Below, piece by piece: positions 14,419-18,939 of a stretch of DNA of 64,000 nt. Source of the DNA: Cryptosporangium minutisporangium. Its GTDB lineage: Bacteria > Actinomycetota > Actinomycetes > Mycobacteriales > Cryptosporangiaceae. How positions within the stretch are numbered: the stretch's first letter is position 1; each line of letters starts with the position of its first letter. The notes beneath the pieces are model-generated. The model did not search any database. It was not told the origin of the DNA and saw only the letters and a list, made by a program, of their open reading frames with translations. The position numbers and the translations under genes were made by a program. The stretch is taken from the NCBI RefSeq assembly GCF_039536245.1, contig NZ_BAAAYN010000011.1:62001-126000 (forward strand). Direction: 5' to 3'.

Positions 14419-14850
14419 ATGGACGACCCCTACCGGCTCGAACGATTCGTCAGCGCGCAAAACAGCGGCCACGGGTACGACGCCGTGCTCGCCGAACTGC
14501 ACGCGGGCGAGAAGGTCAGCCACTGGATGTGGTACGTGTTCCCGCAGGTGCAGGGACTGGGCAGCAGCGCGATGGCCCAGCAGTACGCGGTCTCCTCAGG
14601 GGACGAGGCGCGGGCCTACCTGGCGCACCCGGTTCTCCGGGCCCGGCTGCTGGCCGCGGTCGACGCGCTGCTCGGCGTCGAGGGGCGCAGCATCACCCGG
14701 ATCCTCGGCCCGGTGGACGCGATGAAGCTCCGGTCGTCGATGACGTTGTTCGCCGCGGCCGACCCGGACGAACCCGCGTTCCGCCAGATCCTGGACAAGT
14801 ACTTCCACGGGCAGACCGACGACCGGACCGTGGCGTTGCTCGGCATGTGA
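14419..14850 (+). CDS. DUF1810 family protein
   Basis: A 143-residue protein with the hallmark DUF1810 pattern: DPYRLERFVSAQ at the start, then KVSHWMWYVFPQVQGLGSSAMAQ-type sequence, LAHPVLRARL and a C-terminal DPDEPAFRQILDKYF. Length matches the family (about 140). The molecular function of the family is not well established. The ATG at 14419 lies 61 bases from the divergent GNAT start. Confidence 0.88.
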   Translation: MDDPYRLERFVSAQNSGHGYDAVLAELHAGEKVSHWMWYVFPQVQGLGSSAMAQQYAVSSGDEARAYLAHPVLRARLLAAVDALLGVEGRSITRILGPVDAMKLRSSMTLFAAADPDEPAFRQILDKYFHGQTDDRTVALLGM

Positions 14851-17524: not shown

Positions 17525-17703
17525 CCCGCCAGTCTTCCCGGCGCGACCCCGATCGGGACAGGACGATCATCCAGACGCAAGGAAGCCATAAGAGGGACGA
17601 AAGGTGGACGCATGCGGTTTTGTCGAGCTGCGCTACTCTCTGCACCACTGCAGCGCCGTCCGACGTAGCCGCGTCACCGGACGGCCCACCGTGAGGAGCG
17701 GTG

Positions 17704-18939
17704 ATGCGACCGCGCGTTTTTATCGGCAGCTCGAGCGAGGCCCTCAAGATCTGCCACGCGATCCAGCACGAGCTGGAGCAGGACTTCGACGTCACGGTGT
17801 GGGACCAGGACGTCTTCCGGTTGACGCGCGGCGCACTCGACAGCCTGCTGACGGCGCTCGACGCCTCGGACGCAGGCGTGTTCGTCCTCCGGCCGGACGA
17901 CTCGACCGAGAGCCGCGGCTCGGTGCAGCCGACCGTCCGTGACAACGTCCTCTTCGAGTTGGGCCTGTTCCTCGGGCGCCTGGGCCCCGAACGGACGTTC
18001 ATGCTCACGCCCAAGAACTCGCCGGTTCACCTGCCGACGGATCTGCTCGGGTTGACGTCGGCGCACTACGACCCGATCCGGTTCGATCGCGGCGAGGAGC
18101 GACCGGCGATCGCCCCGGCCTGTCGGCAGATTCGGCGGGCGTTACGCGAACGACAGCCACGGCTGACGCCACCACCCGCAGCGCAGGTCCGGCTGGAGCG
18201 CGCCATGAAGCGTCTGAGCCGTGACCTGGAGGAACTGCTGAGCGCGCAGCCCGCGGACGGCTCCGTCGTCAGCAACCCCGAGCCGCCGCTCCTGGCTGAG
18301 TTCACGTTCCGCCGGATGACCGTCCGGCTCGAACTCGGCCGGATCCAGGACTACGTCTCGTCGGACGCCCAGTCGGTGATCGGCTTACCGGCCAACGAGT
18401 ACTTCGACGACGAGTGCATCAACGATCCGCACAGCTCGCTCGGCGCGTTCGTTCGGCATCACTTCGGCGGTCGTCACGACGAGTTCATCCGGGCGGTCCG
18501 GGCCGAGCTGACCGGCCTGCCGTCCCAGCGCGTCCACCGGGCCGGTCAGCGGATCGGCGAGAGCTACGGCGTCGGCGAGGCGCTCTATCTGCGCGGGCTG
18601 GCTCCGGAGCTCCGGACGATCCTCGTCGCGGCGACCACGGAACGGTCCTCGGTCGGGCTGCGCGCCGAGCCGCACTTCCTGTACGCGGCGCTGGAGAGCG
18701 TCCTGGCCACGATGAACGAGTGCCGGCTGAACTCGCTGACGATTCCGGTTCTCGGGTCCGGCCACGGTGGCATGCCACTGCCGATCGCGATCTTGTTCAA
18801 CCTCCTGGCGCTGCGCTCGCTGGCCGGCGAGGACGACACCGGCCGGCACGTCCGACGCGTACGTATCGTCGCGTTCGAGCCGGCAGCCGAAGCGCTCGAC
18901 TGGGACACGATGCGCCACGTCCTGGCGTACTTCGCCTGA
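17704..18939 (+). CDS. TIR-like (CAP12-type) domain fused to a ThsA-like macro domain
   Basis: A 411-residue protein. Residues 1 to about 150 form a CAP12-type TIR-like domain (RVFIGSSSEALKICHAIQ at the start). The conserved block RDNVLFELGLFLGRLGPER carries the presumed NADase glutamate at E85. A charged linker (about 150-205, RLERAMKRLSRDLEELL) follows. The C-terminal part (about 205-410) looks like the macro domain of Thoeris ThsA-type proteins: VIGLPANEYFDDECI at about 225-239, SSLGAFVRHHF, ILVAATT, and the Gly-rich loop VLGSGHGGM at about 349-357. Known TIR domains of this kind cleave NAD or make signal nucleotides in anti-phage systems, and ThsA macro domains bind such signals. That both sit in one chain is directly visible; a defence role is inferred. 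GAGGAG lies five bases before the ATG at 17704. It has no co-directional partner genes. Confidence 0.85.
   Translation: MRPRVFIGSSSEALKICHAIQHELEQDFDVTVWDQDVFRLTRGALDSLLTALDASDAGVFVLRPDDSTESRGSVQPTVRDNVLFELGLFLGRLGPERTFMLTPKNSPVHLPTDLLGLTSAHYDPIRFDRGEERPAIAPACRQIRRALRERQPRLTPPPAAQVRLERAMKRLSRDLEELLSAQPADGSVVSNPEPPLLAEFTFRRMTVRLELGRIQDYVSSDAQSVIGLPANEYFDDECINDPHSSLGAFVRHHFGGRHDEFIRAVRAELTGLPSQRVHRAGQRIGESYGVGEALYLRGLAPELRTILVAATTERSSVGLRAEPHFLYAALESVLATMNECRLNSLTIPVLGSGHGGMPLPIAILFNLLALRSLAGEDDTGRHVRRVRIVAFEPAAEALDWDTMRHVLAYFA

Follow-up and report, generated by a model that had tools for sequence, protein, structure and literature searches.

A TIR-macro fusion gene of Cryptosporangium minutisporangium that may encode a stand-alone, ligand-gated NADase effector

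Gene and domain layout

The stretch analyzed, referred to below as the window, comprises 64,000 nucleotides of Cryptosporangium minutisporangium (RefSeq assembly GCF_039536245.1, contig NZ_BAAAYN010000011.1, positions 62,001 to 126,000 of the forward strand). The subject is one gene in this window, which encodes an N-terminal CAP12-type TIR domain followed by a C-terminal ThsA-like macro domain. A preliminary description of the window, made from the sequence alone, had presented the gene as a TIR-macro fusion in one continuous reading frame, which was indeed found: the open reading frame (ORF) is intact and runs for 411 amino acids plus stop from the ATG at 17704, with a GTG at 17701 as a possible alternative start. 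Its codon use is coding-like (GC1/2/3 = 0.71/0.47/0.89). The features of the gene, in window coordinates, are:

17693..17698, + strand: GAGGAG, likely ribosome-binding site, 5 bases 5′ of the ATG (by eye)
17704..18939, + strand: TIR-macro fusion gene (ORF, Pfam, PADLOC, AlphaFold2 model)
17704..18153, + strand: CAP12-type TIR domain, residues 1-150 (Pfam, phmmer, VIA)
17956..17958, + strand: E85 codon, counterpart of SfSTING catalytic E84 (phmmer alignment to TIR-STING; PMC9402430)
18040..18042, + strand: D113 codon, counterpart of SfSTING D110 (alignment, numbering counted by hand; PMC9402430)
18178..18243, + strand: predicted linker helix, residues 159-180 (secondary structure and pLDDT of the AlphaFold2 model)
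18298..18936, + strand: ThsA-like macro domain, residues 199-411 (Pfam, PADLOC, hhalign, Foldseek, VIA)
18340..18342, + strand: R213 codon within a GRI motif, replacing the adenine-contacting Asp D83 of EcThsA (alignment counted by hand; PMC11204291)

The whole protein was modeled with AlphaFold2 from a 10-row alignment (A3), giving a mean predicted local distance difference test score (pLDDT) of 79.9 and a low-confidence stretch at residues 184-195, between the linker helix and the macro domain. The structure prediction proposed in the preliminary description yielded a match to TIR-STING over the TIR half, which was the best whole-protein Foldseek match (E 2.6e-11), and matches to macro domains over residues 194-411.

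Three further TIR-macro fusions were found, all in Actinomycetota: L003, from a Streptosporangiaceae metagenome-assembled genome (MAG), L004, from Paractinoplanes toevensis, and L045, from a genome of the same family as L004. They are 55%, 53% and 52% identical to the window protein, respectively. Because the arrangement recurs in these three loci, the fusion is confirmed and is not an artefact of one assembly.

The TIR half

The assignment of the N-terminal half to the CAP12-type TIR domains, already made in the preliminary description, was upheld by profiles, sequence and structure. Pfam CAP12-PCTIR_TIR (PF10137) matched residues 4-123 (E 1.2e-28, 99.9 bits, cut-off 24.7), and PADLOC TIR effector models matched the fusion protein down to E 6e-48. 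The NCBIfam Cap12 equivalogs matched the TIR half only, at 121 and 97 bits versus the 450 needed. In phmmer searches, the TIR half matched TIR-STING (9lmq) at E 8e-26 and PycTIR (8jsj) at E 6.7e-18; in VIA, it aligned with chain 9lmq_D over 140 residues with Z 15.5, a root-mean-square deviation of 3.7 and 38% identity.

In SfSTING, the NAD+ pocket consists of F6, S10, W33, F37, L47, R78, N80 and the catalytic E84, while D110 comes from the opposite TIR and completes the active site of its partner (PMC9402430). Equivalences were mapped by hand from the phmmer alignment to TIR-STING. The window-protein counterparts are F6, S10, W33, F38, L48, R79, N81, E85 and D113, and all nine, the trans aspartate included, are identical in the four fusions. 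The residue that the preliminary description took for the NADase glutamate, E85, is by this alignment the counterpart of the catalytic E84 of SfSTING.

Since the NADase pocket is complete and a CAP12-type TIR kills in TIR-STING, the TIR half most likely acts as the killing (effector) domain of the fusion. The earlier statement that no killing domain is visible does not hold, and the proposed signal making is the less likely of the two roles suggested, as the best family is the CAP12/Pycsar effector TIR (PF10137) and not the signal-making ThsB TIR. As one pocket residue is supplied in trans, activity is expected to require assembly, as it does in TIR-STING.

Fold and family of the macro half

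The C-terminal half is a divergent ThsA-like macro domain, as the preliminary description had proposed. Pfam ThsA_Macro matched residues 215-370 barely over the cut-off (E 1.2e-5, 25.6 bits, cut-off 25) and Pfam Macro matched residues 288-360 just below it (E 2e-4, 21.7 bits, cut-off 22); ThsA_Macro scored 34.1 bits in L003. The PADLOC ThsA macro model PDLC00410 matched all four fusions, the window protein at E 1.5e-13. A profile built from the macro domains of three fusions and L005, a macro protein described below (profile A2), aligned in hhalign with a ThsA-like profile at Prob 98.1 and E 7.7e-14.

Modeled alone, the macro half had a pLDDT of 88.8. Its first Foldseek match was PcThsA with imidazole adenine dinucleotide (IAD; 8v6s, E 5.3e-10), and ThsA chains made up 7 of the 11 top rows. 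In VIA, four ThsA entries reached Z 17.6, 17.4, 16.9 and 16.9 with 194-195 residues aligned; the AF1521, O. iheyensis and PARP14 macros lay within 1 of the best ThsA in Z, and the remaining entries listed aligned over 155-180 residues. With the whole-protein model, several macro families fell within 1.5 in Z. By eye, the fusion macro also fills the loops in which ThsA is longer than the canonical macro L026. On these models, the macro fold of the C-terminal half is secure, and fold does not settle which macro family is nearest.

Ligand pocket of the macro half

EcThsA macro domains bind ADP-ribose (ADPR) and IAD and oligomerise or self-aggregate upon binding, and joint mutation of D83, S217, T220 and K262 abolishes ADPR binding (PMC11204291). 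The EcThsA residues were mapped by hand onto the window protein, and all nineteen named in sections 7 and 9 of that paper land on the right letter. Kept or conservatively replaced are N96 (N231), D100 (D235), L113 (L246), S175 (T311), G218 (G353), S217 (S352) and H259 (F391), with the window residue in brackets. R213, at the position of EcThsA D83, lies within a GRI motif in all six rows formed by the window protein, L003, L004, L045, L005 and L011; the other aligned macros have D (L016a, L029, L046, L026) or N (L016b) there. Replacement of T220 by Gly gives a GSGxxG-type loop, which in the alignment to solved structures is seen in macroH2A.

MacroD-type hydrolases carry a catalytic Asn/Asp-Gly loop. 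No such loop was seen by eye in the fusion macros when compared with the canonical macro L026. As the ligand-binding fold is present and the catalytic motif was not seen, a sensor role is more likely for the macro half than an eraser role. The preliminary description had allowed that the macro domain removes the product of its own TIR domain, a role that now looks unlikely; such a brake would hydrolyse or sequester the product and keep the enzyme harmless. Some hydrolase macros (AF1521, O. iheyensis) do rank as high as ThsA in VIA, but besides the loop just mentioned, the domain is matched by profile to the ThsA macros, which according to PMC11204291 cannot process derivatives of ADPR, and we consider a brake highly improbable.

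Related macro domains outside the fusions

Apart from the fusions themselves, the nearest macros are L005, from a Bacteroidales MAG, and L011, on an IMG/VR contig in which the gene carries a stop and a frameshift. Both have GRI and NEYFDD motifs like the fusions, and L005 also has GSGHGG. Two hydrophobic segments lie N-terminal to the macro domain in each, with values of 2.56 and 2.37 in L005 and of 3.05 and 2.52, in two pieces, in L011; those of the two L016 ThsA proteins are 1.98 and 2.37, and 1.97 and 2.04. In ThsA, this membrane module serves as the effector. The four fusions have no N-terminal hydrophobic segment: the window protein peaks at 1.55, with no segment of at least 1.6, and the other fusions peak at 1.33-1.61, within folded domains. 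It is mainly because either membrane segments or a TIR precede a similar sensor that the macro is read as sensor and the TIR as output.

When 11 macros were placed in a tree, a split with 100/100 support separated the fusions, L005 and L011 from the ThsA-like rows. L026 falls on the fusion side on a very long branch, the tree leaves four of its eight inner branches open and its root is arbitrary; therefore the fusions and the transmembrane (TM)-macros are not shown to be a clade of their own.

A DUF1810 gene (PF08837) lies directly downstream of the TM-macro gene in both L005 and L011. Among papers naming DUF1810 or Rv1873, judged by title and the start of the abstract, none had the TM-macro/DUF1810 system as its subject. 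The L005 pair stands in an ADP-ribose-rich island (L005:7806-13154) that holds genes for the TM-macro, DUF1810, a UvrD-like helicase, DarT and an ADP-ribosylglycohydrolase. The window also has a DUF1810 gene:

14419-14850: DUF1810 gene, Rv1873 family (PDB 2jek), 2.9 kb upstream of the fusion

A three-part system that includes this gene was considered and rejected, because DUF1810 is single-copy in all four genus members searched and sits within a conserved block, GNAT-DUF1810-AMP ligase; the window DUF1810 gene is near the fusion by position only. DUF1810 was present in three of the four fusion genomes versus 9 of 21 genomes in a draw of relatives (own genome included), numbers too few to tell apart.

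A separate IMG/VR locus, L016:2512-7450, carries two TM-macro ThsA-like genes and, by eye, several TIR-like ORFs, and resembles a Thoeris cluster.

Proposed mechanism

The reading that we favor, with moderate confidence, is that the fusion is a stand-alone ligand-gated NADase effector, in which the macro half senses a nucleotide and assembles TIRs that destroy NAD+. The macro domain would bind an ADP-ribose-type small molecule and would oligomerise on binding, as ThsA macros do. Macro clustering would bring the N-terminal CAP12-type TIRs together, the aspartate of one TIR completing the active site of its partner, and the assembled TIRs would hydrolyse NAD+, stopping or killing the infected cell. 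The fusion would then work like TIR-STING, TIR-SAVED, PycTIR and Cat1, with a ThsA-like macro as sensor. By analogy with these families an antiphage role is suggested, and the gene is probably a one-gene emergency self-poisoning switch against viruses.

Several observations weigh against this reading. Three of the four residues in the EcThsA mutant that loses ADPR binding are changed in the window protein (D83 to R213, T220 to G355, K262 to A394); N114 is replaced by G247, and the counterpart of S217 (S352 in the window) is alanine in L004 and L045. With three of the four tested positions changed, the fusion macro may have a ligand or a binding mode unlike those of ThsA, or may bind weakly. 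In VIA, macroH2A1.1 with ADP-ribose leads the ThsA entries (Z 19.0, 172 residues aligned, 1.4 above the best ThsA), and among solved structures macroH2A chains match profile A2 better (E 2.8e-5) than ThsA chains do (E 0.001), the match to ThsA spanning the whole domain (profile 1-201) and that to macroH2A only 129-196. Pfam ThsA_Macro was reported for neither L004 nor L045, and the window protein barely passes. A marginal hydrophobic stretch (1.61) lies inside the macro domain of L004 and L045. Finally, PADLOC at E 1e-5 found no TIR, cyclase or CD-NTase among 50 other window ORFs, a scan that left out 8 of the 57 listed ORFs and some unlisted ones, and no signal-making gene was seen beside L045 (four neighbors by Pfam, the rest by eye) or beside L003 and L004, whose short contigs were read by eye.

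The most novel alternative is a one-gene immune switch, in which a GRI-motif macro would read either the ADP-ribose-type product of the TIR in its own chain or a non-canonical nucleotide that is new. Such a switch would be a feed-forward device that depletes NAD+ and needs no partner gene, with a ligand unlike the histidine-ADPR (His-ADPR) or ADPR of ThsA and a macro of a subclass shared with the undescribed membrane-macro and DUF1810 system. We regard this as rather unlikely.

Recurrence, rarity and selection

L004 and L045, which are 86% identical and whose upstream genes look alike by eye, are counted as a single lineage. The ratio of nonsynonymous to synonymous substitution rates (dN/dS) between them is 0.18 overall, 0.12 in the TIR, 0.40 in the linker and 0.21 in the macro domain; both halves are under purifying selection in this close pair.

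The TIR-macro fusion is rare. Matches to the A2 macro profile were counted in five draws of genomes, which may overlap and of which those for the class of the window, the order of L005 and the order of L004 are samples of larger groups. In the class of the window, one of 394 genomes matched, the own genome, and in the order of the L004 genome one of 347, L004 itself. The order of the L003 genome gave two of 345 (L003 and L029, in which the macro is fused to a BTAD domain) and the family of the L004 genome three of 354 (L004, L045 and L046, an EAD1 fusion). The order of the L005 genome gave two of 247, L005 and L026, the latter a canonical macro gene and not a fusion of the TIR-macro kind. Alignment A2 was used for all counts; a profile search of the own genome with PF20016 missed even the fusion gene, so that absence by PF20016 is uninformative.

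Other relatives from the sequence searches covered the TIR half of the window protein only. In plasmids, no record covered 80% of the query, 30 matches ended by residue 212 (the TIR half and linker), and the macro domain alone had no matches. Phages gave no matches to the fusion, and IMG/VR gave only the L011 contig (also present as L015, L030 and L032) and the Thoeris-like L016. A TIR-macro name was not among the best 50 viral structures, and neither the term 'TIR-macro' nor the fusion was found in searches of open-licence papers, judged by title and the start of the abstract.

Three loci met in these searches are of separate interest. L009, on contig C10 of the congener G002, is a TIR-only relative of the window protein with 33% identity across residues 2-159; the match contains one TGA, and L009 may be decaying. 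L029:718-2085 encodes a BTAD domain (PF03704) fused to ThsA_Macro (172 bits), possibly a transcription factor that senses an ADPR-type signal. L046:346-1989 encodes a protein of 547 amino acids that combines an EAD1 effector-associated domain (25.6 bits) with a ThsA_Macro at its C terminus (184.6 bits), another shuffled use of the macro module.

Genomic context and source of the ligand

The fusion gene stands alone between a divergent glycosyl hydrolase gene and a convergent ferredoxin-reductase-like gene. By Pfam, nine flanking ORFs encode ordinary enzymes, a LysR regulator, a PASTA protein, a DUF protein and one weak match. PADLOC matched 5 of the 50 scanned window ORFs: two matched the mad3, mad8 and AriA models, one of them also ATPase-Toprim and HEC-02A, and were taken for generic ATPases; two matched an oxidoreductase model; and the PASTA protein matched PD-T4-6 over its PASTA part. 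None of the 10 ORFs between 10.3 and 24.7 kb of the window had a PADLOC match. The preliminary description was right that no CD-NTase or cyclase gene is adjacent, none being found by PADLOC among the 50 ORFs. The search it had proposed, for homologous fusions and their position relative to defence islands, gave the three further fusions and, by the same scan, no defence island around the window gene. Around L045 (L047, 19 kb), three of the four neighbors examined by Pfam were an SDR, a K+ transporter and a TrkA-type channel protein, and the fourth had no match.

The congener G002 keeps both neighbors of the fusion with other genes in the interval, which places the fusion in a variable slot; the 19 kb fetched from G001 and G003 contained none of the genes tested from beyond the AMP ligase. 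These surroundings bear on the view that the protein is decayed or domesticated, with a housekeeping role in NAD metabolism. Ordinary neighbors and the lack of a defence island around the gene would suit such a role, but the distribution is patchy, the place of the gene between its conserved neighbors is variable in the only congener with both sides kept, the NADase pocket is full in all four fusions and dN/dS is low in both halves for L004/L045. This is, in our view, the most doubtful of the alternatives.

The own genome also encodes two TIR_2 proteins, on contigs C79 and C6, which raises the possibility of a split Thoeris-like system with one of them making the signal and the fusion acting as effector. 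Both genes matched ThsB_TIR in the genome search (31.1 and 23.4 bits); as whole proteins they scored 29.5 bits, over the cut-off of 21.2, and 20.3, under it. The genome of L004 (G479) has seven ThsB_TIR matches and that of L003 (G478) one partial match (model positions 51-95). Against this, such TIR proteins may be common in large actinobacterial genomes, TIR and effector genes share one operon in the Thoeris systems named in PMC12847820, and the C79 protein also has a DUF6879 domain and may have an output of its own. A split system seems improbable. Contig C22 (L001) carries a second CAP12-family TIR protein of 315 amino acids, with the TIR C-terminal (PADLOC PDC-S35, E 3.1e-64), next to an ORF that looks nuclease-like by eye.

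A self-contained feed-forward circuit differs from the split system mainly in the source of the ligand. It keeps the idea of the preliminary description that the macro binds the product of its own TIR. Here a direct trigger, such as a phage protein or crowding, would activate the TIR, and its own ADPR, or a variant, would bind the macro and drive further assembly, making one gene sensor, amplifier and killer. None of the four copies had a partner gene next to it in the PADLOC and Pfam scans or by eye, EcThsA macros bind ADPR itself and then aggregate (PMC11204291), and SpbK shows a single TIR NADase pairing directly with a phage protein, YonE (PMC12847820). ADPR, however, is an ordinary metabolite, so a gate set off by it would have to respond only above a high threshold; Arg replaces the adenine-contacting Asp of EcThsA in the group of the fusions, L005 and L011; and the two TIR_2 proteins in the genome could act in trans. 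We think such a circuit fairly unlikely, and a ligand-gated NADase effector remains the reading that we favor.

Comparison with known systems

Bacterial TIR NADase effectors are already known with STING, SAVED, CARF and cyclic-nucleotide-binding sensors. If the proposal is true, a macro-gated TIR links, in one protein, the Thoeris signal world of ADP-ribose derivatives to the world of effector TIRs, and membrane helices and a TIR are exchanged as killing domains on a ThsA-like macro module. A ligand other than His-ADPR would point to a further nucleotide immune signal. The gene is alone and small, so that ligand, NADase activity and phage protection are directly testable.

CBASS Cap12 TIR-STING (SfSTING, 9lmq) has the same layout, with a CAP12-type TIR at the N terminus and a nucleotide-binding domain at the C terminus, and the same nine pocket residues. 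The fusion differs in having a macro for STING, in the absence of a CD-NTase among the 50 scanned window ORFs and in its score with the Cap12 models (121 bits of 450).

Thoeris type II ThsA (TM-macro; 8v6q, 8v6r, 8v6s, 8r66) shares with the fusion a ThsA-like macro with an N-terminal effector module. The fusion has the ThsA-type macro of type II systems and a TIR in place of the two membrane helices of the TM module, and no ThsB was seen as its operon partner among the 50 other window ORFs scanned with PADLOC. It also differs at three of the four tested ADPR-binding residues and lies on the other side of the 100/100 split in the small tree.

The Pycsar effector PycTIR (8jsj) likewise joins a CAP12-family TIR effector to a ligand-binding domain, but its TIR is at the C terminus, residues 156-296 of 311. 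PycTIR has a cyclic-nucleotide-binding domain where the fusion has a macro, and a cyclase gene in its operon. Pfam, PADLOC and NCBIfam found no cyclic-nucleotide-binding domain in the fusion, and there was no cyclase among the scanned window ORFs.

The TM-macro/DUF1810 pairs (L005, L011) have the closest macro domains outside the fusions; they differ by two hydrophobic segments in place of the TIR and by the DUF1810 gene directly downstream. Cat1 (CARF-TIR; PMC12162218) and TIR-SAVED (PMC9402430) are nucleotide-gated, filament-forming TIR NADase effectors, as the fusion is proposed to be with respect to ligand gating; they have other sensor domains, and their signals are cyclic oligonucleotides. 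With these sensor-gated TIR NADase effectors the fusion shares, by sequence and predicted fold, a TIR NADase and a small-molecule-binding domain in one chain. The fusion thus falls outside Thoeris type II, CBASS Cap12 and Pycsar, and its likely mode of action is most like that of TIR-STING with a ThsA-like sensor.
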